This document shows positions 9,723 through 40,446 of a stretch of 55,475 bases of DNA, piece by piece; the stretch's first letter is position 1, and every line of letters begins with the position of its first letter. Position numbers and translations under genes: made by a program. The stretch lies in IMG/VR virus record IMGVR_UViG_3300045970_000288, positions 1 through 55,475 of that record; one strand, written 5' to 3'. The notes beneath the pieces are model-generated. The model did no database searches. It was given only the letters and a program-made list of their open reading frames with translations, and was not told the DNA's origin. This stretch comes from a virus.

Positions 9723-9956
9723 CTATTGAAGGTTGCTTCGCAGGATGCGAGTGATGGATTTCGCCCCGCCGTAATCGGTGGGAAAGTCCACGCTGCTGGA
9801 GAACAGTATACACCGCCCTTTGAGCTTGTCCAGATACTTACGAGCCCCGGCGGCCCCTATGGCATTGGCATTGAAGAGCGCGGGTTCAAGTTCCGGGGTC
9901 TCTCCATCCTCAATGCTGATTACCCCATTGTCTATCTTCACGAATATGCTGTTCAC
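9723..9956 (-). CDS. Unknown small protein, GTG start (77 aa)
   Basis: GTG start (VNSIFVKIDNGVISIED) in a GTGA overlap with the 29-aa gene upstream and GGGAGGAAACT ribosome site. Contains GAAGARKYLDKLKG. No family recognised. Confidence 0.65.
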   Translation of the reverse strand: MNSIFVKIDNGVISIEDGETPELEPALFNANAIGAAGARKYLDKLKGRCILFSSSVDFPTDYGGAKSITRILRSNLQ

Positions 9957-10042
9957 AGTTTCCTCCCGTGTTCCAGGGCACAGTACGGGGAGACGCACAT
10001 CCCGTCATGGTCCAGGACTTTTCCTCTGTAAATTACTTGCAT
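9953..10042 (-). CDS. 29-aa microprotein
   Basis: MQVIYRGKVLDHDGMC... with a strong GGGAGGTACAGC ribosome site, directly downstream of promoter P5; its stop overlaps the next start (GTGA). Two Cys and two His (GMCVSPYC) could bind metal. It may also serve as a leader peptide coupling translation of the 77-aa gene. Confidence 0.6.
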   Translation of the reverse strand: MQVIYRGKVLDHDGMCVSPYCALEHGRKL

Positions 10043-10064
10043 GCTGTACCTCCCTGTAGTGGTC

Positions 10065-10079
10065 CCCCTCGGTGGGGGT
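10065..10079 (-). promoter_or_regulatory. Leader hairpin before 29-aa gene
   Basis: CCCCC-ACCGA-GGGGG in the P5 leader, just ahead of CTACAGGGAGGTA. Confidence 0.5.
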
Positions 10080-10099
10080 TGATGCGCTTTTTTATGTTT

Positions 10100-10128
10100 A
10101 TTATATAATAGGCGCTGAGAAATCGCAA
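10100..10128 (-). promoter_or_regulatory. Promoter P5
   Basis: TTGCGA-17-TATAAT upstream of the 29-aa gene. Confidence 0.8.
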
Positions 10129-10147
10129 GTAAAATCAGTGGGTTTCG

Positions 10148-10933
10148 TTAGGTCCTCCAAGTATTTCCATTTGATTCCGCTTCTTCTATTGCGTCCGGTA
10201 TGTCCCGGTAGCAAGTCAGATCATCCCCGTAGGCGTTGGGCAGGGAGAATACCCATCGGTAATAGTCGGTGATCCCGTCCCACACATTTCCCACCTTAGG
10301 GGATTTCGGGCAGCCGCAGAAGTACAGATTCCCGTTGGGCCGTATGAATAACGCCCCGCAGATGCAGTCATTTTTACGAGAACTATGCCCTACCCCGGTA
10401 GTCTTGGCCCTACCAATAGGCACCCAGACGCTTGAATTGCGTATCTCTCGACCGTCATTTTTAGGCCCCGCGTAACTACCCCAGGTACCCTCTAGTCTTT
10501 CTCTGGTAAACGCGGCAACTACTTCGGGGGCTACCATGTGCTTGGGGTGCATATCGTCCCGCGACAATGACGCATGGATATAGCCGTTCTTGGCCATAGC
10601 CGCTAAACGTAATGCCGTGGCGGTAACTGTCCCGTTGGTAACCACTGCTACCGTAGCCGGGTCCCCGCTGTCGAGGTCGGACGGAAACACTGAGAAGGCA
10701 AAAGTCATAGCCTCCCAGAACCGTGGGTGTAGCGTCGGTTCTCCTCCCCCCAAAGTAAAACGCCACCTATCGTCAGGAGTGTAGTCTTCTTTCTCTAGGT
10801 ACAGGTTGGTGAGGAATTTCATGGTCTGGTCCACGGTTTTATCGTCCATGTGTCGGCCGCGAATGGTGTGCGCTCCGCAGCAATGGGCGCATAACATATT
10901 GCAGCGGTTTGTAATCTGCCAATAGATATTCAT
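10148..10933 (-). CDS. Radical SAM enzyme with SPASM/Twitch-like C-terminus (261 aa)
   Basis: Start MNIYWQITNRCNMLC. Residues 11-18 carry CxxxCxxC (C11, C15, C18), the ligands of a radical SAM 4Fe-4S cluster; GGGEPTLHP (about 62-70) is the SAM-binding GGE motif. The C-terminal region CICGALFIRPNGNLYFCGC followed by VGNVWD resembles a SPASM/Twitch auxiliary-cluster domain. Substrate unknown. It lacks the short size and spacing typical of QueE. Last gene before P5, 3 bp beyond the stop of its upstream neighbour; small ORFs on both sides make a peptide-modifying role conceivable. Confidence 0.85.
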   Translation of the reverse strand: MNIYWQITNRCNMLCAHCCGAHTIRGRHMDDKTVDQTMKFLTNLYLEKEDYTPDDRWRFTLGGGEPTLHPRFWEAMTFAFSVFPSDLDSGDPATVAVVTNGTVTATALRLAAMAKNGYIHASLSRDDMHPKHMVAPEVVAAFTRERLEGTWGSYAGPKNDGREIRNSSVWVPIGRAKTTGVGHSSRKNDCICGALFIRPNGNLYFCGCPKSPKVGNVWDGITDYYRWVFSLPNAYGDDLTCYRDIPDAIEEAESNGNTWRT

Positions 10934-10936
10934 AAC

Positions 10937-11206
10937 TTATCCTTTCGGCGGGTAGTAGACACTCTTTTTTAAATCCCCTAGTTCTCCCTGTAAATGGACA
11001 GTGCCGTTGACGACCAATACCCAGCCGGTAGCGTGGGGGCCGTACCACTCTTTAGCGGGGGCCACGAATACCCATGCCCCGTTATGGTACACTTCTTGGG
11101 CCATCCATTTGAGTACCAGGGAAAGCTGCTTGTCCTGTTTTTCCATGATTTTGGTCACCAATGTTCCTTGTGGGTACGAGTGCATTGAAAACTGGAGCTT
11201 ACTCAC
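10937..11206 (-). CDS. Unknown small protein, GTG start (89 aa)
   Basis: GTG start (VSKLQFSMHSYPQG) behind GGGAGGACGCC, GTGA overlap with the gene upstream. Aromatic and beta-rich (GAWVFVAPAKEWYG, TGWVLVVNGTVHL). Directly upstream of the radical SAM gene and probably cotranscribed. Confidence 0.65.
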   Translation of the reverse strand: MSKLQFSMHSYPQGTLVTKIMEKQDKQLSLVLKWMAQEVYHNGAWVFVAPAKEWYGPHATGWVLVVNGTVHLQGELGDLKKSVYYPPKG

Positions 11207-11391
11207 GGCGTCCTCCCGGATGGCCGTGGGTTCCAAACGCTAGGGTGCCGGGGACAGCCCGTTTCATGGGTGGCGCACCCATTTACAACCAGGGCTTGAC
11301 ACTGACTACATCCCACCCGCCAAGTTTTATCACTGCGATTGTAGGTGCTGGTATCGAAGCCATTTTTACGTAGTCTTTCTCCCATTGTCAT
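11203..11391 (-). CDS. Small Cys/His-rich phage protein (62 aa)
   Basis: Start MTMGERLRKNGFDTST behind CGGGAGAAAACC. Contains VGCSQCQALVVNGCATHETGC, a CxxC...NG..xHExGC pattern found in small proteins of many phages; probably zinc-binding. Function unknown. Confidence 0.75.
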   Translation of the reverse strand: MTMGERLRKNGFDTSTYNRSDKTWRVGCSQCQALVVNGCATHETGCPRHPSVWNPRPSGRTP

Positions 11392-26155: not shown

Positions 26156-26938
26156 CTATGCTACCAGTTTTTTGAGGTCAGGTAACGGTGACTGAAAGAT
26201 TCCTAGCCCCATAATTACCGCCCCTATTACCCGCCCAACTCGAACCGAAGTTTCACAGTCAATGTGGATGGAAGCGTGAGACTCATGCACCGTGAAATCA
26301 TTAGCCAGGAACATGGGCTTGTACTGCTGGAAATTCGACCCCTGTACCCGAATAGATACCTTCTGCCCTTGTACCCTGGCCGCCATATTGATACCCGGTC
26401 CCATGGCTACTACCGTGTAGAGACTGCCTGCGGTGGTGCCCGGTACCTTCTGGTAGAGGGCCAGTGCGCTGTACAGAGTACAGTCCGGTTCCCCATACTT
26501 AGAAGGATGGCCAAACGAAAGCGTCGTAGGCGTAGCGAACTGGCTTGGTTCGGGTCCCGAAGCCCCTGGGGGCGGGGTAAAATTGGGCTTGGGGTTTGGG
26601 GTCGCACCGTAAGAAGAAGTCCATTTCTTCTTAGGGGTTGATGGCGTAGACCCCGGTGTCGTATTGGCCATAGCAAGAGCCTGTTCGATAGCCGTTTCCA
26701 ACTGCCCTTTGAGATGGCTAAACGAAAGAGGCATAAGTTCCCCTTTCATAGCCTGATCAATGCTGCCCCCCGGTAGGGTAACGGTCTTGAGGGTGGACCC
26801 GTACTTAATAAACAAGAGCTTGTTTACCCCGCTCTTAACCTGTACCCCATTATTCTTGAGGGCCTCGTATTCCCCCTCCAAGTGGAAGGCAGTGAATACT
26901 TTACCGATATCCAAAGCACCCCCATAAATTACTGACAT
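26156..26938 (-). CDS. Unknown two-domain protein with Pro-rich linker (260 aa)
   Basis: Start MSVIYGGALDIGKVFT behind CTACAAGGAGGTAATCATT, driven by P10. N-terminal alpha/beta domain (1-95), a Pro/Thr/Ser linker (about 95-140), and a beta-rich C-terminal domain (SLYTVVAMGPGINMAARV, VSIRVQGSNFQQYK). Downstream of a phosphatase-like gene in the accessory block. No family recognised. Confidence 0.7.
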   Translation of the reverse strand: MSVIYGGALDIGKVFTAFHLEGEYEALKNNGVQVKSGVNKLLFIKYGSTLKTVTLPGGSIDQAMKGELMPLSFSHLKGQLETAIEQALAMANTTPGSTPSTPKKKWTSSYGATPNPKPNFTPPPGASGPEPSQFATPTTLSFGHPSKYGEPDCTLYSALALYQKVPGTTAGSLYTVVAMGPGINMAARVQGQKVSIRVQGSNFQQYKPMFLANDFTVHESHASIHIDCETSVRVGRVIGAVIMGLGIFQSPLPDLKKLVA

Positions 26939-27004: not shown

Positions 27005-27838
27005 TTATTTCAGTGTATTACCCGTCCATATACACCCCTTGCTAGACACGGGATGGACTTCTTTCTTGGGTGAATTGTTGCTGGGCAGATAGGCCGACGA
27101 ACTGTAGCTCTCTAGCGAGGACTTATAGCCGACGGTTGCGGATAGGGATGCTGCGGTGTGGCCTGTCTTAGACGCTGATACTTTGGTTATCCCAAAGTTC
27201 TTGTTTAGCCACTCAACTTGCACGGAGGACTCGACTACCTTTTTACAATAATGCTCCCGCACATAAGTTACCGCATCAGCTTCCTGTGCAATTGATTGCA
27301 CAAGAACCGATAGAACTAATCCTGTTCGGCCATGCCCACCGATACACCCAATAAATATCTTTTTGTCCAGCATAATCTGCTCAGACAGATATTGAATCAG
27401 GGACTTGAACAAGCTCAGGTCGGGAGGTACGCCCATGTCAGGGATAGGGAAGAGATACTCCAGGCCCGGTTCCCACGGATAACGTCTCTTTGTGTGTTGC
27501 ATCCCGCCATCTAAGCCAATGAATATATCCATGTCTTTGATTACAGGGTCAAGGCACGAGCCCCCATACACCAAACGAGTTATCCCATCAGAACAAAGGA
27601 TGGGTAACCCCGGATGCGAATGGTGGCACTTTGGCTGTGTCGATTTAGTCGATGCCCCTTTGGGGGTGAAGGGCACTACGTTAGATCGCTGACTGGCAGG
27701 GGCCATTTTACCGGTAGTTACATACGACTCAAGGGGTGCTCCCGTGGCCGATAAGGGAGTTACTATCACATCATCCCGGTCTTCGTCTTGCACCTTGAAC
27801 TCCAATTTTAGATTACATTTTACTGTGGGCTTTCCCAT
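27005..27838 (-). CDS. CX5R phosphatase-like protein 1 (277 aa)
   Basis: Start MGKPTVKCNLKLEF behind TGGAGGTAACA. The P-loop IFIGCIGGHGRTGL gives C165 and R171 of the Cys-x5-Arg catalytic motif of protein tyrosine/dual-specificity phosphatases; PIPDMGVPPD about 30 residues earlier could supply the general-acid Asp. An upstream VYGGS...D segment is shared with the second phosphatase-like gene at 28991-29653. N-terminal 75 residues are polar and unlike a phosphatase. Palindrome copy 9 is in frame (VQSIAQ). Substrate (protein, RNA 5' end, nucleotide) unknown. Confidence 0.75.
   Translation of the reverse strand: MGKPTVKCNLKLEFKVQDEDRDDVIVTPLSATGAPLESYVTTGKMAPASQRSNVVPFTPKGASTKSTQPKCHHSHPGLPILCSDGITRLVYGGSCLDPVIKDMDIFIGLDGGMQHTKRRYPWEPGLEYLFPIPDMGVPPDLSLFKSLIQYLSEQIMLDKKIFIGCIGGHGRTGLVLSVLVQSIAQEADAVTYVREHYCKKVVESSVQVEWLNKNFGITKVSASKTGHTAASLSATVGYKSSLESYSSSAYLPSNNSPKKEVHPVSSKGCIWTGNTLK
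27286..27301. repeat. 16-bp palindrome, copy 9 (intragenic)
   Basis: GTGCAATTGATTGCAC on the plus strand, one mismatch, inside the phosphatase-like gene; encodes VQSIA. Confidence 0.75.
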
Positions 27839-27858
27839 TGTTACCTCCATGTAAGGGG

Positions 27859-28899
27859 CTATGCTGCGAGTTGCGCCCGAGTCAGGATTTTGTACTGCTC
27901 CTTACTCGACACGTAGAAGACATTACTTCCATTGGATGCGTTAATAACCGAAGTCGCACCGTAATGTTGTTCTTGCTTTTGTTTGTAGTTGACCCAAGCC
28001 ACTCCTCCAATAGCAGATTTACCCACTGCTGGCCAATTTACCAAGCTACCAAGTTCCGGGTATAGCTTGCGAGCCGCGGTAAGCAGGGACATTTGTACTT
28101 GGGTGGTCCACGACCCAGGTAGGCTGAGGTAGTTGGGGCCTAGCTTCTGTAGCTCGCTCAATAACTGTGGTATCTGTCCTGCCCGCTGAATATCCAGGAT
28201 GCTGCCTAAGGTCCCACCACTACCCTCGTATACTACCCCCTTATTGAAGATGGACGCGGTATTGTGGGCCAGAGACCACACTATATCAAGCATTATCTCC
28301 GCTGACGTGATACCCACGGTGTAATTGTGCAACACTTCGGCAATTACTCCCCACTTGGGCCCTCCGTACGAGGGGGAAAACTTGCCATTCTTGTAAGTGA
28401 ACATGAACGCCTCGGTGAGTTCCCCGATACTTACGTGTTCCGGGGGCGTACTCACAAAAGCAGATACTACGTGTACCCCATTACTCATAGGCTGAATCTT
28501 CTGCATGAATTGCACTACTGCCGGGGTAAACTTGGCCTGCATTTTAGGCCACCACGTCCCGTCCGATATTTTGACGTGACGCGCTTCCCGCATGCAGATA
28601 AGGAACAAATACGAAAAGGCCCGATGAACCATTGGCAGGGTCATTGTGAAGTACGTATCGGCTAAGTAACGCTCTTCTTGGGTCAGGGGGGCATAAAGGT
28701 CACGGCTACCAGCTAGTACCGCGTAAATGTGGTTGCCCAGATAAAAATTCAGGGCATCCACTTCGGGGGTTTGCTTGGTGTGGTGCATAGAGTTATGGTA
28801 CTGCCGGTTCTTGAAGGCTGTGGCTAAATGCTCGGCGGGCGTTCCTCCGAAGTTCAAATTCTTCTTTAACGCCCGCTGATTGTACTGATACACGTTCAT
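27859..28899 (-). CDS. Unknown protein between the two phosphatase-like genes (346 aa)
   Basis: Start MNVYQYNQRALKKNLN behind TACAGGGAGGTAAACG. Mainly helical (TPEVDALNFYLGNHIYAV, MVHRAFSYLFLICMREA), His-rich N-terminal part, Ser/Gly-rich C-terminus. Transcribed from P11. Its position between two CX5R proteins suggests a shared pathway. No family recognised. Confidence 0.75.
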   Translation of the reverse strand: MNVYQYNQRALKKNLNFGGTPAEHLATAFKNRQYHNSMHHTKQTPEVDALNFYLGNHIYAVLAGSRDLYAPLTQEERYLADTYFTMTLPMVHRAFSYLFLICMREARHVKISDGTWWPKMQAKFTPAVVQFMQKIQPMSNGVHVVSAFVSTPPEHVSIGELTEAFMFTYKNGKFSPSYGGPKWGVIAEVLHNYTVGITSAEIMLDIVWSLAHNTASIFNKGVVYEGSGGTLGSILDIQRAGQIPQLLSELQKLGPNYLSLPGSWTTQVQMSLLTAARKLYPELGSLVNWPAVGKSAIGGVAWVNYKQKQEQHYGATSVINASNGSNVFYVSSKEQYKILTRAQLAA

Positions 28900-28990: not shown

Positions 28991-29653
28991 CTAGGCTATG
29001 GAGTGTAATTCTTTGGTGATACCACTCACATCCAACCGGGCCAGGAAATCCAGTTGTTCAATAGTTTCTATGGCGTGGCCATAATAATTATCCCGTACGT
29101 ACTTCACATAGGGGGCGAGTTGTCCGTCCGGGGTTACGTCCAGTTCTCCCGCCAAGTACATAATCTTGGCAAGGCCCCCGAGATAGAGTCCGGTGCGCCC
29201 GATACCACCCATACAGCCCACGTAAATCTCCCCGTGCTCCCTGAGAACCAACACCCCACGAATGAGGCCAAGCAGAAAGGTATTCGAGTCGGGGATACTA
29301 AAATCCACGGTAGGCACATAGATAGTGGCGTGAGCCTTGATTTCCTTGGCCATGTTGACCCCGTGAATAATATCAGAAGGCTTGCTACGATAAGGGCCCC
29401 CGTATATCGTACCTTTGATGGAACCCAACTGAAAATCCATAGTACCTTTGACCAGGGTGTGTAGCAGAGCCTTGCGCTGGATAGCCTTAAGGTCCGCGTT
29501 GCTTACCGCCGGTTGTAACTCTGCTGGAACGCTCTCAACTTGTCCCGCGTAGTAGCTTCTCTTGGCCTCGCGCAGTCCATCCTTGAAGGCTTTGAATCCG
29601 ACCCGCAATAGGTGCAGGTATGTTCCGTTTTTACTTCCTTCATTCCCTTGCAT
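28991..29653 (-). CDS. CX5R phosphatase-like protein 2 (220 aa)
   Basis: P-loop IYVGCMGGIGRTGLYL gives C147 and R153; DFSIPDSNTF supplies a candidate acid. GTIYGGPYRSKPSD parallels the VYGGS...D segment of the paralogue at 27005-27838. The start at 29653 has AAGGAG but lies 151 bp inside the upstream gene; an internal ATG at 29440 with AAAGGTACT would remove the overlap and keep the catalytic domain. Confidence 0.75.
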   Translation of the reverse strand: MQGNEGSKNGTYLHLLRVGFKAFKDGLREAKRSYYAGQVESVPAELQPAVSNADLKAIQRKALLHTLVKGTMDFQLGSIKGTIYGGPYRSKPSDIIHGVNMAKEIKAHATIYVPTVDFSIPDSNTFLLGLIRGVLVLREHGEIYVGCMGGIGRTGLYLGGLAKIMYLAGELDVTPDGQLAPYVKYVRDNYYGHAIETIEQLDFLARLDVSGITKELHSIA

Positions 29654-29970
29654 AGTTTACATTCTCCTTGTGGTGGGTTGTAGACACAGTCGCACACATC
29701 ATAAACAATCAATTTTTTGGAGCCCCCACATACAGGGCATCCTTCCTGCTTTTTATGCACACCCGCGATATACCTGTAGATTCCTGTCACTAAATCATCC
29801 CCTACTAAATTGAAGACGTAGTTGTGAAAGCGTCGGTTGCCGTGGGCGTGGGTTACTCGGGCTGAGAACTCCATTTTGTGCTGCAAGTCCTCTAAACTGA
29901 GGACCCCGAATAACTCTTCGGCTTGTCGTAAAGCACTATTCGTGAAGCGGTAGTTTTGACGTCTGTCCAT
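29503..29970 (-). CDS. DnaJ-type zinc-cluster protein (155 aa)
   Basis: Start MDRRQNYRFTNSALRQ. Central CPVCGGSKK, CDC, CKLCKGMK and CTYCGS repeats resemble the CxxCxGxG knuckles of DnaJ zinc domains. The preceding part (SARVTHAHGNRRFHNYVFNL) is unassigned. Possible RNA or protein chaperone partner of the CsrA-like neighbour. Confidence 0.7.
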   Translation of the reverse strand: MDRRQNYRFTNSALRQAEELFGVLSLEDLQHKMEFSARVTHAHGNRRFHNYVFNLVGDDLVTGIYRYIAGVHKKQEGCPVCGGSKKLIVYDVCDCVYNPPQGECKLCKGMKEVKTEHTCTYCGSDSKPSRMDCARPREATTRDKLRAFQQSYNRR

Positions 29971-30250
29971 TGATATGCCTTTTGTACGGGCCTTCCCGAA
30001 GGATGGTGATGCTGCGGGGGGCATCAACTACTACCCGTGCGGTCTCTAAATCCCCGTTGCCCGCAGACACAAATACCGAAGGGAGTATTTCTGTACTCTC
30101 TTCCCCGGTTATGGGCAGGTAGTGGGGTTTCTTCTTGTTCTGGAATACCTGGATGCGGAACGCCTCGGGGCCTATAATCGTGTGTAGGGTGACCCGTGTG
30201 TCACCTATGTACATGGAACATCCCTTTTTTAATCCCAATATCAATGCCAT
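29936..30250 (-). CDS. csrA: CsrA-like RNA-binding protein with insertion (104 aa)
   Basis: The N-terminus LILGLKKGCSMYIGD matches the CsrA start (LILTRRVGESIMIGD), and ARVVVDAPRSITILRE matches the C-terminal strand and RNA-binding HRE region. Between them VTLHTIIG is followed by about 45 extra residues absent from the normal 60-70-aa protein. The second basic residue is kept as Lys, the first is Leu; the Arg of the xRE motif is kept. CsrA dimers bind ANGGA in mRNA leaders. Start behind GGGAGAGTAAT, right after the PPDK-like gene. Confidence 0.75.
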   Translation of the reverse strand: MALILGLKKGCSMYIGDTRVTLHTIIGPEAFRIQVFQNKKKPHYLPITGEESTEILPSVFVSAGNGDLETARVVVDAPRSITILREGPYKRHINGQTSKLPLHE

Positions 30251-30251
30251 A

Positions 30252-32384
30252 TTACTCTCCCAAAACGCGGTGGATAAACTCGGTGTACGTTTGAGCCGGG
30301 GGTAGGATATTAAACTTACGGCCAGCCATTTCAGCCATATCTAGGAACAATTGCAATCCCGTCTGGTCCTCGAATAAAGTCTTACAGGTGTCCGCGGGTA
30401 ATTCAACCAATCCCGACGAGTTCAGGATATCGGTTATCGTATTGGCGGAAGGCACCGTTTTAAACTTGGGCATATCCTTGACATTAATGCCTGAGTCGGG
30501 GGGTACTGTAACATAAATTGCCACGTCTGGGGCAGTTAAAGTGTGCAGTTGCTTCAATTTTGCCCCTATAGCCTGATATTCAGCCCTGGCCGCGATATCA
30601 ATACTAAACAATTCAGAGAGTACTTTATCGTCTTCGACATGCAGTTGTTTCACTGTGGCGGTACCATTGATAACTACTGTATCATGCTGTAGGGCCGCGT
30701 GTCTCAGGTTGGTACTCGTTATGGCGGGGGTCACACATACCGAAGGTAGTCGTAAGCGTGAGTCGAAGGTCCCATCCAGTAGTAACGGAGAATAACCCTT
30801 GGTCAGAATACTTATTATCTGCTGGGCCGCAGGACTGATGCCCTTGGTCACCAGTGGTACCTTCCCCTTCCATACTTCCCCCGTGAGACCGTTGATGGTT
30901 AGCCATTCATTCTTGGGGAGCAGGGTCTCTCCCAGTTTCCACACAAAGCCGATTTTACCCAGGTCCCCACAACCGACGACGCAGGTTTTACCCATACCCC
31001 GAGCCACCACGGCCGCGTGAGAAGTTAAGCCCCCAGTTGCGGTGAGAATACCCACTGCGGCGTGCATCCCCCCAATATCATCGGGGGTAGTTTCCTTGGA
31101 GACCAGGATGCAGGGCTCTTTGCAGGCGATAGCTTCCTCAGAGGTATATACCGCGACACCACTGACGATGGTACCACCCCCAGGGATGCCCACCCCCGCA
31201 GGTTTTCCCGTATAAGCCGGGTCGATACTGACGTGGTCGGACCCCAAGAGCAATTCCGGGGTGAGCCTTCGAGATACATCAGACAGAGTAATCAGCTCAT
31301 CGTGGTACATGTCTACCGCTACCCTGAGAGCTGCTTCTGGTGATCGCTTGGCATTACGGGTCTGGAGGATATATAACTTTCCATTCTCTACCGTGAACTC
31401 TATGTCTTGCATGTCCCGGTAGTGATCTTCCAGTCGAACAGCGACGGCCTTCAAGTCAGAACATACCTTGGGGTTCCATTTTTCCAGTTCGTCAAAGGGC
31501 AGAGGGGTTCTGATTCCCGCAACAACGTCCTCACCCTGGGCGTTAGGTAGGAACTCCCCTACCAGATTATCATCCCCGGTGGATGGGTCTCGGGTGAAGA
31601 GAACACCAGAGCAAGACTGCTCGTTACGATTTCCGAAGACCATGGCTTGTACTGTTACCGCGGTGCCCCAATCGTAGGGGATATTGTTCAATGCGCGGTA
31701 CGTATGGGCGCGGGGGTTGTCCCACGATTGAAATACCGACTTGATGGCCAGCAATAACTGCCCCCGAAGGGTGGTGGGGAAATCGTTACCGGTATGGGCC
31801 TTGACCAGTTTCTTGTAACGGATAACCAGTTTGCGAAGGGCGGATACTGAAAGGGCGGTATCCTCAGTCACATTCTCTTCTTTTTTCGCGTCCGTGAGGG
31901 CCTCTTCAAACTGAGACATCGGAACTTCAAGGGCCACAGAAGCCATCATCTGAATGAGGCGACGGTAGCTATCCCAGGAGGCCCACTCCCCGATACGCGG
32001 AAACCACTCTTCCAAGGTATCCGGGGTCAGTCCCACGTTGAGAATGGTATCCATCATACCTGGCATTGACACCCGAGCCCCGGAACGAACGGAGAACAAC
32101 GGGGTGTATCCGAACTGCGGAACGATATCGGTCTTTATCGCGGTGAGGACTTCATCTACCAGAAAATTGAGTCTGGTCTGTACTGACTCTTCCTTTGCCT
32201 CAGATAAGAACTTGATACATTCTACGGTTGGGATAGTCATTGCGGGGGGTACAGGGATACCGAGTTGAGTCATGACGAACAGGCCGGAAGCCTTGCCCCC
32301 CAATAACTCTTTGGCCTCTCCGAGATTCATGGTCTCGAAAAGATCGCCTTCGGTAATAGTACTGTACAGCTTCTTGGGTTGCAT
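30252..32384 (-). CDS. ppdK: Pyruvate-phosphate-dikinase-like protein lacking the C-terminal barrel (710 aa)
   Basis: Residues 1-360 are the PPDK ATP-grasp region: LLGGKASGLFVM, VRSGARVSMPGMMDT, SGVLFTRDPSTG, FLPNAQGEDVVAGIRTP, LYILQTRNAKRSPEAA. The swivelling phosphohistidine domain follows with GGLTSHAAVVARGMGKTC, catalytic H456. True PPDKs (about 870-900 aa) then carry a PEP/pyruvate TIM barrel; here only about 195 unrelated residues follow. It could therefore phosphorylate its own His from ATP and pass the phosphate to a different acceptor. Driven by P12. Confidence 0.9.
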   Translation of the reverse strand: MQPKKLYSTITEGDLFETMNLGEAKELLGGKASGLFVMTQLGIPVPPAMTIPTVECIKFLSEAKEESVQTRLNFLVDEVLTAIKTDIVPQFGYTPLFSVRSGARVSMPGMMDTILNVGLTPDTLEEWFPRIGEWASWDSYRRLIQMMASVALEVPMSQFEEALTDAKKEENVTEDTALSVSALRKLVIRYKKLVKAHTGNDFPTTLRGQLLLAIKSVFQSWDNPRAHTYRALNNIPYDWGTAVTVQAMVFGNRNEQSCSGVLFTRDPSTGDDNLVGEFLPNAQGEDVVAGIRTPLPFDELEKWNPKVCSDLKAVAVRLEDHYRDMQDIEFTVENGKLYILQTRNAKRSPEAALRVAVDMYHDELITLSDVSRRLTPELLLGSDHVSIDPAYTGKPAGVGIPGGGTIVSGVAVYTSEEAIACKEPCILVSKETTPDDIGGMHAAVGILTATGGLTSHAAVVARGMGKTCVVGCGDLGKIGFVWKLGETLLPKNEWLTINGLTGEVWKGKVPLVTKGISPAAQQIISILTKGYSPLLLDGTFDSRLRLPSVCVTPAITSTNLRHAALQHDTVVINGTATVKQLHVEDDKVLSELFSIDIAARAEYQAIGAKLKQLHTLTAPDVAIYVTVPPDSGINVKDMPKFKTVPSANTITDILNSSGLVELPADTCKTLFEDQTGLQLFLDMAEMAGRKFNILPPAQTYTEFIHRVLGE

Positions 32385-38153: not shown

Positions 38154-38182
38154 AGTGTACCTAGTGTTGACAGTTTTGTCAA
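38154..38182 (-). promoter_or_regulatory. Promoter P14
   Basis: TTGACA-17-TACACT; the -35 is half of TTGACA-GTTT-TGTCAA. It overlaps the 3' end of the helicase gene. Confidence 0.7.
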
Positions 38183-40446
38183 TGCTCTTCTATCGTGGTT
38201 TCTTTGCTGAGGTACCATTTTCTTCTAGTGGCCGCATAACTGGCCATTACTGAACTATCACTATCTACCGGGTCGAAGACTATGGGTACCGATTTGTCAG
38301 GATATTCCCGCAGAATACGTCCCACGATTTGTACTACGTCCGACCTGGGGGTAGCCATTACTAGAGTATCTAGCCACGGGATATTGGTCCCGAAGTTAAT
38401 CATCCCGTACGTAGCCAGTATTACCTGCTTGGCTTTGGAAATCTCCAAGTCTTTCTTAGACATGGTGCCCACGTAGTAGCCCATGTCCTTACGAGCCACT
38501 CCGAGCTTGGCGAAGAGGGCGTAGAGTCGGTCCAGGTGATCTTCCTTGAGGTCCGATACTACCAGAATGTTTCTCCCTGCGGTATAAGCCTTGGCCACGA
38601 AGTCCCCAATGATCGAATTACGTTTCTCGTTGCCTGCCATGAGCTTGAAAATGTGCATGAGCTTTCCAGCACTGTGGGGCAGTTGAATGATATCGTAGGC
38701 TCCCGTCTGGGGATTTTTCTTTTTGACTCGGGGTACTTTCCAGCCGGTCTCTTTGCGGAAAATACGGAAGGGTAATTCATTACCCTCGATACGCACTAGG
38801 ACTTGCCCGATGTGGTCCGTAAACAGCCTCTCTCGTCCATCTTTACGGTAGGGGGTAGCCGACAGTCCCAGTCGGTACTTGGCAGGGAATAGCCAGACCA
38901 ATTCGGAGAAGGTTTCTGCTCCCATAACGTGTACTTCATCGAAGATGATGAGGCCGAATTGACGGTAGAGCGCGTCTGGATAACGACCCTCTTTGCACAG
39001 AGAGTGTACCAACCCAATGACCAGCTTCTTGCCCTCATAGGAACACTTGTCCCCTTTGACAATGCCTATCTCTGAATCGGTGAGTCCTAGCACTCCTTTG
39101 GCTGCCACTATCCACTGGTCCACGAGGTCAGTCTTGGGTACCACGACTAGGGTACAGAGCCCCATGTTGGCGGCAATGGCCATACCCATGAAAGTCTTGC
39201 CGGAATTGTGTACTACAATACCATTGGCTACAAAATTGTGGTGAGGGGCCTCGCACTGTATGTCGTAGGTCATTTCCTCACCCACATACACAACTGACTC
39301 CACAGGAACGTAATAAGGTACCATATTTCCAAAATTCTGCGGTGAAGCATGGTGGCTGTAGTGGTCTTCCCTCAACATCTTTTGCAAATTATCAATACTA
39401 TTGTTGCTGTGGTTACCATCCTTATGGTGTATCACGTAAATCGAAGGGTCTACCAAATCAAGATTGGACGTCTTACCTAGTCTGCATACGGTGATGTAAT
39501 CATCCAGTGACAATTTATTGGTCCTGGCCTCAAATATCGCTACGTGCAGGGCTACTCTGCGGGTGTACCCTCGGGCCTCTTTTGTGGTCCTTATGCGTAC
39601 AGCAAACGGGTGCTTCCACATGTTATTGATATACTTGTCTCGTACTTTGGGGGCCTTAGTTACCTGCTTTGTGGGGCGTACTCGATCACACATAACCATG
39701 TGGTCAGGGGTTAGGTCCCCCAGAGGCACGAAACCTTCTGTAGTCATTATGGGGTGGTCTTTAGTTCCCACCAAAAAATTACAATCCCCTAGAGTAAGGC
39801 GGTATACCTCTTTCACCCCCGATTGTACTACCGCATTAGCCTTGTTTAGCCCTATATGGGTACCTAAAAAAGACCGTACCTGCATGCTGTTTTTCCATTG
39901 ACGAACTCTACCCTCATGCTTGAATAAAAACTTAGAGGGTACTCCCTTGGGACGTTTTGGACTTCTAGTTCTCTCGGGTACTGTTGTCTTTCCTCCGCAC
40001 CCACAAAAACAATAGCCCTCAGGTACAGGTGTTGGTGGGTGCGTGTGGCGGTAGGCTTCTTCCAGAGTAGTCCTTACGGATTTCCCCGCCCTGTTTACAA
40101 TTATCTCGGTACTACCCACAAGACATCCCGTGGGGGCTTCCAGGATGTGTGACTCGTCCCCTTGTAGCAGTTGGGAGCAGTAATCTACGGCCTCAGACTG
40201 GTCCTCATTACGGGGAATGAAGTTGGCCTTGGGGAAGGACACCGGTATCCCCACTACTCGCTTATCCAGTTTGCCGATAGGACAAATGGCCCGTGGCAGG
40301 TGGATGGAGGCGTTGCCCCCGTACCCCGACAACTTGTAAGTGACGAAGGGGTCACCGTAGCGGGACACATGGGTGTACTTCTTCTCCATGCCCGTCTTGT
40401 AAGGGTAGATTGCCGCCGCAGCGGTCATGAGTGGTTGCCCTAGCAT
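38179..40446 (-). CDS. SF2 DNA helicase interrupted by an intein (755 aa precursor)
   Basis: Residues 1-107 and 415-755 make a roughly 448-aa DEAD/DEAH-type helicase: P-loop EAPTG/SGKT, Walker B FGLIIFDEVH, motif III GLSATP, motif VI QIVGRILR. The intein (residues 108-414) splits the P-loop. The helicase resembles UvsW/XPB-like repair or recombination helicases. Start behind GGGGGAAGAA overlapping the upstream stop (ATGCTAG). Confidence 0.9.
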   Translation of the reverse strand: MLGQPLMTAAAAIYPYKTGMEKKYTHVSRYGDPFVTYKLSGYGGNASIHLPRAICPIGKLDKRVVGIPVSFPKANFIPRNEDQSEAVDYCSQLLQGDESHILEAPTGCLVGSTEIIVNRAGKSVRTTLEEAYRHTHPPTPVPEGYCFCGCGGKTTVPERTRSPKRPKGVPSKFLFKHEGRVRQWKNSMQVRSFLGTHIGLNKANAVVQSGVKEVYRLTLGDCNFLVGTKDHPIMTTEGFVPLGDLTPDHMVMCDRVRPTKQVTKAPKVRDKYINNMWKHPFAVRIRTTKEARGYTRRVALHVAIFEARTNKLSLDDYITVCRLGKTSNLDLVDPSIYVIHHKDGNHSNNSIDNLQKMLREDHYSHHASPQNFGNMVPYYVPVESVVYVGEEMTYDIQCEAPHHNFVANGIVVHNSGKTFMGMAIAANMGLCTLVVVPKTDLVDQWIVAAKGVLGLTDSEIGIVKGDKCSYEGKKLVIGLVHSLCKEGRYPDALYRQFGLIIFDEVHVMGAETFSELVWLFPAKYRLGLSATPYRKDGRERLFTDHIGQVLVRIEGNELPFRIFRKETGWKVPRVKKKNPQTGAYDIIQLPHSAGKLMHIFKLMAGNEKRNSIIGDFVAKAYTAGRNILVVSDLKEDHLDRLYALFAKLGVARKDMGYYVGTMSKKDLEISKAKQVILATYGMINFGTNIPWLDTLVMATPRSDVVQIVGRILREYPDKSVPIVFDPVDSDSSVMASYAATRRKWYLSKETTIEEH
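39205..40125 (-). mobile_element. Intein with HNH homing endonuclease (307 aa)
   Basis: Begins at C108 (CLVGSTEIIV, splicing block A), contains TKDHPIMTTEGFVPLGDL (block B-like), an HNH motif VIHHKDGNHSNNSIDNL, and ends FVANGIVVHN before extein Ser415. All residues needed for splicing (first Cys, penultimate His, terminal Asn, +1 Ser) are visible. The more AT-rich composition fits horizontal acquisition. Confidence 0.92.

Follow-up and report, generated by a model that had tools for sequence, protein, structure and literature searches.

The kinase gene and its cassette

The window (the whole stretch of 55,475 nucleotides analysed here) has a phage setting, with genes for a portal protein, DNA polymerase A, DnaB helicase and lysozyme. 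It also encodes a radical SAM protein among the late-region genes (10148–10933, minus strand) and a 755-residue DNA helicase (38179–40446, minus strand) with an internal HNH-endonuclease-like stretch (residues about 285–371), which is possibly an intein or an inserted domain. The gene at 30252–32384 (minus strand, ATG start) was correctly delimited by the first-pass annotation and encodes a PPDK-like kinase of 710 residues, which contains ATP-grasp and phosphohistidine domains without a PEP barrel and belongs to the phage family phrog_18609 (PHROGs label 'kinase'). The two domains, described there as complete, are so indeed, as they match Pfam PPDK_N (E 3.5e-46) and the PEP-utilizers mobile phosphohistidine domain (E 1.3e-22) and have intact nucleotide-site residues, while the Pfam search returned nothing beyond these two, PEP-utilizers_C being absent.

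The ATP-grasp module (residues about 23–345; 31350–32318, minus strand) contains the conserved residues K31, R100, E329, Q341 and R343, and the catalytic ATP-grasp residues of PPDK (R92, E323, Q335 and R337 in C. symbiosum numbering) are present. The swivelling phosphohistidine domain (residues about 383–515; 30840–31238, minus strand) retains the catalytic histidine and the neighbouring threonine of PPDK, where H456 (codon 31017–31019, minus strand), the predicted phosphorylated residue, lies in GGLTSHAAVVARGMGKTC as had been reported and is identical across all homologues compared. An alignment of 74 phage homologues with 10 full-length PPDKs and two natural fusion proteins shows R100, R142, E329, Q341, R343, T454 and H456 invariant, and K31 is identical in every row but one, the exception being an alignment gap (73 of the 74 phage homologues). 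Residues 23–523 align to C. symbiosum PPDK (phmmer against the PDB, 1e-127), where the alignment ends, and the NCBIfam model TIGR01828 is covered at positions 13–521 of 865 with a score of 532 bits, below the equivalog cut-off of 843. The structural model has a pLDDT of 87.5 overall and mostly >90 across the retained ATP-grasp/swivel half. As the nucleotide site of PPDK and H456 are fully conserved in sequence, the kinase is still expected to form phosphohistidine from ATP, in line with the original proposal.

The kinase gene belongs to a conserved cassette of several genes. One base downstream lies a gene for a divergent CsrA-like protein of 104 residues (29936–30250, minus strand), in whose family 9 of 28 rows match PF02599 (best 1.7e-6) and the copy in phage J26 is annotated CsrA. 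It is followed by a CXXC zinc-ribbon-like open reading frame (29503–30027, minus strand), a weak assignment with relatives in some cassettes. It overlaps the start annotated for phosphatase a, which, judging by the alignment, may truly begin further downstream. Phosphatase a (28991–29653, minus strand; motif GCMGGIGRTG) and phosphatase b (27005–27850, minus strand; motif GCIGGHGRTG) are CX5R enzymes resembling protein tyrosine (PTP) or dual-specificity phosphatases, and their genes flank that of the helical partner described below. Their residues C147, R153 and D117 are invariant in 35 sequences, where D117 would act as the general acid, and their profile matches solved PTPs such as SsoPTP and DUSP23 at 1e-13. 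The fifth cassette gene, A4 (26156–26938, minus strand), encodes a protein of 260 residues with invariant Tyr174 and Arg197, for which no known relative was found.

In two cultivated phages the slot of the second phosphatase is occupied by a gene with another name, namely 'thymidylate synthase thyX' in DLP5 (L170, 13586–14374) and 'pyruvate decarboxylase' in J26 (L167, 14115–14969), both from the family with the CX5R signature. On account of this signature the two names (phrog_17568, DLP5 gp143, for the former) are rejected; both genes look mis-annotated, with phrog_17568 inheriting the wrong name. A role of the cassette in DNA hypermodification was considered and finds no general support, as just one of the 27 cassette genomes has PF00303 (thymidylate synthase/hydroxymethylase family).

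The kinase family, its C-terminal tail and the missing barrel

Members of the kinase family are found in the Stenotrophomonas phages DLP3 and DLP5, Rhizobium phage TM16, Rhodobacter phage RcZahn and many vibriophages, with 56 phage records and at least 100 IMG/VR stretches matching the kinase. The proteins at most retained loci have 590–745 residues, while contigs encoding proteins of 860–970 residues contain an ordinary barrel where tested. In a tree rooted on the full-length PPDKs sampled, an outgroup of limited sampling, the 74 barrel-less proteins group with both fusions in a single, fully supported clade, in which the fusions are sister to the remainder. The giant Bacillus phage G encodes a short PPDK-related protein (gp139; L169, 5707–6804) without helical partner or phosphatases, apparently a case separate from the cassette kinases. 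Full-length PPDKs in Listeria and Enterococcus 'phage' and in faecal contigs gave no match in the partner search, and are either host sequence or a separate case.

The C-terminal tail of the window kinase (residues about 516–710; 30255–30839, minus strand) is fast-evolving and folds in the model as a small alpha/beta domain, predicted at lower confidence than the rest of the chain. Across 34 relatives these approximately 195 residues are only 10–19% identical to the window protein, and the alignment contains one invariant glycine and no conserved polar residue, arginine or cysteine. A HHalign comparison of the tail with PPDK barrels, made with a shallow barrel profile (Neff 2), gave a probability of 1.5% and recovered the shared linker helix only, while hmmsearch against the PDB returned nothing significant (best E 0.36), so that an assignment of the tail to a known domain is rejected. 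By Foldseek the whole kinase chain is collinear with 1kbl (801 columns, TM 0.68). The loss of the barrel, which the first-pass annotation had claimed, is thus borne out by a tail with neither a barrel profile match nor a conserved catalytic Cys/Arg. The suggestion that the tail is a new catalytic half finds no support, as its identity is low and no polar residue is conserved, and the likely acceptor half is the product of 27859–28899. Given the collinearity with 1kbl, the tail may be a shrunken barrel remnant; a working PEP site in it is very unlikely, and it would more likely serve as a scaffold or docking surface than in catalysis.

The barrel is not supplied by another phage gene either, as PF02896 was found in none of 48 barrel-less records by a search that detected it in the two positive-control contigs and in each of the 14 control genomes. 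The same result supports an acceptor other than pyruvate, as had been anticipated. About 40 sequenced phage records carry the kinase gene, in most cases under the name 'pyruvate phosphate dikinase' or 'kinase'. The gene has been discussed as an auxiliary metabolic gene boosting host glycolysis, yet these proteins are without the PEP-making domain. The homologue of phage J26 (691 residues) was published as a PPDK, PEP was docked into a TIM barrel described as binding pyruvate, and complete overlap with 1GGO was reported for residues 1–527 only (PMC12038007). In the J26 genome the profile search gave no PF02896 match, and the genome has the same cassette order, with the partner annotated as 'putative membrane protein'. 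The published role of the phage 'PPDK' in carbon metabolism is probably wrong.

The helical partner and its natural fusions to the kinase

The gene between the two phosphatases (27859–28899, minus strand) encodes a protein of 346 residues from family phrog_20946 (PHROGs category 'unknown'), proposed here as the acceptor-site subunit. Kinase and partner are gp6 and gp10 in RcZahn, and gp137 and gp142 in DLP5. Its model is all-helical and confident (pLDDT 90.4), and no Pfam, PDB-sequence or NCBIfam relative was found; Foldseek gave no significant match in the PDB (best E 0.7), the structural matches being confined to four unnamed viral proteins and one weaker fragment. The model thus points to an apparently new fold. 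The all-alpha model and the lack of Pfam and PDB matches also led to the rejection of the partner as a split-off barrel. In 91 standalone sequences, with a mean column identity of 24%, 16 positions are invariant, and the conserved core (E105, R107, H108, G179-G180, W183, D205, H212, N213 and K220) is a candidate acceptor site.

The partner is present in 23 of the 25 barrel-less records searched, the two misses being a 5.8-kb fragment and phage G, which has the short gp139 and no cassette, and in none of the 10 full-length-PPDK contigs searched. Forty named phage records encode it, all from phages of Vibrio, Stenotrophomonas, Rhizobium or Rhodobacter, the same genera as those of the barrel-less PPDK matches. 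A search from the partner alone recovered the order kinase, phosphatase a, partner, phosphatase b and A4 at most loci reaching far enough, with the CsrA-like and zinc-ribbon genes standing between the kinase and phosphatase a. Among cellular genomes (84,980 species) there were seven partner matches, which look like prophages or phage contigs, as all seven bear the same cassette. In the literature searched, which excluded subscription titles, no description of the partner or of its link to the kinase was found, and this protein is a previously unrecognised associate of the phage 'PPDK'.

Neighbourhood clustering unexpectedly grouped the kinase with the product of 27859–28899, because the kinases of two contigs, L066 (780 residues) and L080 (782 residues), bear the partner domain C-terminally. 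The partner profile matches them with E 4e-25 and E 4e-22, respectively, and PHROGs independently assigns the L066 protein to both phrog_18609 and phrog_20946 (E 7.8e-17). In both, the partner domain takes the position of the tail immediately after the phosphohistidine domain, and the partner motifs E..RH, YGG.W, D......HNNG and K are retained. This evidence comprises two related proteins (56% identical), in which the fused part covers partner positions about 96–239 only, and one sequence-based scan for further fusions returned only L066 itself.

The fusion kinases are adjoined by a CX5R phosphatase gene, which is followed in both contigs by a marginal A4-like domain (E 0.0024 and 0.16). On contig L171, two adjacent open reading frames downstream of a fusion kinase (9760–10749 and 10725–11342) share a GT..YVVA...R motif that is similar to A4. 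The terminase and DNA polymerase A families are absent from the flanks of the fusion contigs. Elsewhere, terminase, cassette, DNA polymerase A and portal form a syntenic core block of the phage clade, so much of the co-occurrence may reflect common descent; the fusion contigs, which keep a CX5R phosphatase without the usual flanking families, argue for the kinase, partner and phosphatase as a functional module rather than clade core genes only.

A putative two-subunit dikinase and its relation to known systems

Taking together the domain loss, the association and the fusion seen in the sequences, we infer that the kinase more likely than not contributes the ATP-side half to a dikinase of two subunits, whose acceptor site is supplied by the helical partner. 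In the phosphotransfer chemistry envisaged for the cassette, ATP bound in the PPDK-type ATP-grasp module would phosphorylate H456 of the swivelling domain with release of AMP, as the PPDK nucleotide site and H456 are fully conserved. The swivelling domain would then dock on the partner (27859–28899), which would stand in for the lost PEP/pyruvate barrel, and the phosphate would be transferred to the true acceptor bound there; the partner is put forward as acceptor holder because of its constant association with the kinase, the exclusion of barrel-bearing PPDKs and the natural fusion. One or both CX5R phosphatases would have the phosphorylated product, or the protein it targets, as substrate, as gene order and intact motifs imply. 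The presence of phosphatases in the cassette suggests that the product, possibly a protein, undergoes dephosphorylation; it is possible that the product is a protein or a small molecule, both being compatible with these enzymes.

A specific form of this two-subunit reading is reversible protein phosphorylation, in which the acceptor is a protein, for example A4 with its tyrosine or a host protein bound by the helical subunit, and the phosphatases remove the mark. The two phosphatase-like paralogues, with intact CX5R motifs, an invariant Asp117 and matches to SsoPTP and DUSP23, are consistent with it, as are the invariant Tyr174 of A4 and the marginal A4-like domain after the phosphatase in both fusion contigs. 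However, CX5R enzymes are not restricted to proteins and have lipids, sugars and RNA among their substrates, the invariant tyrosine may be structural, and we know of no member of the PEP-utilising dikinase superfamily that phosphorylates protein tyrosine, so we regard this form as rather unlikely. Its full elaboration is a phage circuit in which a PPDK-derived phosphohistidine carrier and the helical subunit phosphorylate a protein, perhaps at a tyrosine in A4 or in a host protein, two PTP-like phosphatases reverse the reaction and a CsrA-like regulator sits in the operon; such a circuit is a speculative proposal with quite a low chance of being correct.

Alternatively, the cassette may consist of unrelated core genes of a phage clade linked by descent, with the kinase working alone or with a host protein. 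The synteny reaching to terminase and DNA polymerase, and the monophyly of the kinase family with respect to the full-length PPDKs sampled, would both be accounted for in this way. It is made distinctly unlikely by the natural fusion of kinase and partner beside a phosphatase, in flanks without the usual families, and by a gene order that is maintained despite a mean column identity of 24% in the partner. Interference with host PEP metabolism has less to recommend it still: here the kinase would drain phosphate, or form dead-end complexes with host PPDK, PEP synthase or the PTS, in concert with the CsrA-like regulator. The intact ATP-grasp and swivel modules and the CsrA-like gene adjoining the kinase in many members fit such a role, but it offers no account of why the helical partner is fused to the kinase or constantly found with it, and the barrel, through which PPDK dimerises, is missing. 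It is extremely improbable that the kinase is an ordinary divergent PPDK that still makes PEP with a reduced barrel as its tail, the description once given to a phage homologue (PMC12038007), as the alternating short strands and helices of the tail in the AlphaFold model and the whole-chain collinearity with 1kbl are outweighed by a length of 195 residues against about 340 in the barrel, by the failure of any barrel profile to match, by the lack of a conserved Cys or Arg and by the TIGR01828 score of 532 against a cut-off of 843.

On the two-subunit reading, a mis-annotated metabolic gene becomes a testable phosphotransfer system, for which the natural fusions and the cultivated phages RcZahn, DLP5 and J26 offer test material. 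The families of kinase and partner are already catalogued as phrog_18609 and phrog_20946, but the catalogue neither links them nor notes the barrel loss. PPDK itself (TIGR01828, e.g. 1kbl) shares the ATP-grasp and swivel domains with the phage kinase, residues 23–523 being alignable and the catalytic residues conserved, whereas the phage enzyme is without the PEP/pyruvate TIM barrel, scores below the equivalog cut-off and has its constant helical partner instead.

Dikinases that have departed from PEP are known in two other forms. In rifampin phosphotransferase (RPH), a different acceptor domain has taken over from the PEP barrel (PMC4844700); it is partly helical and in this respect resembles the phage system, but RPH is a single chain with the order ATP-grasp, acceptor, swivel. 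The phage kinase has ATP-grasp and swivel domains and no PEP barrel, as do enzymes of the RPH or two-component type; its partner showed no likeness to the RIF-binding domain, as Foldseek gave no significant match, no RPH entry was among the matches listed and no NCBIfam match was obtained. HpeHI and the phenylphosphate synthase PpsAB are dikinases split over two proteins (PMC12167813), and, together with CreHI, they share with the phage system the two polypeptides and a non-PEP acceptor. In these enzymes the cut separates the ATP-grasp domain from the acceptor and swivel domains, whereas the phage system keeps ATP-grasp and swivel together and sets the acceptor half apart. The phage acceptor domain appears unrelated to those of the known dikinases, and the phage system is a variant within the PEP-utilising dikinase superfamily.
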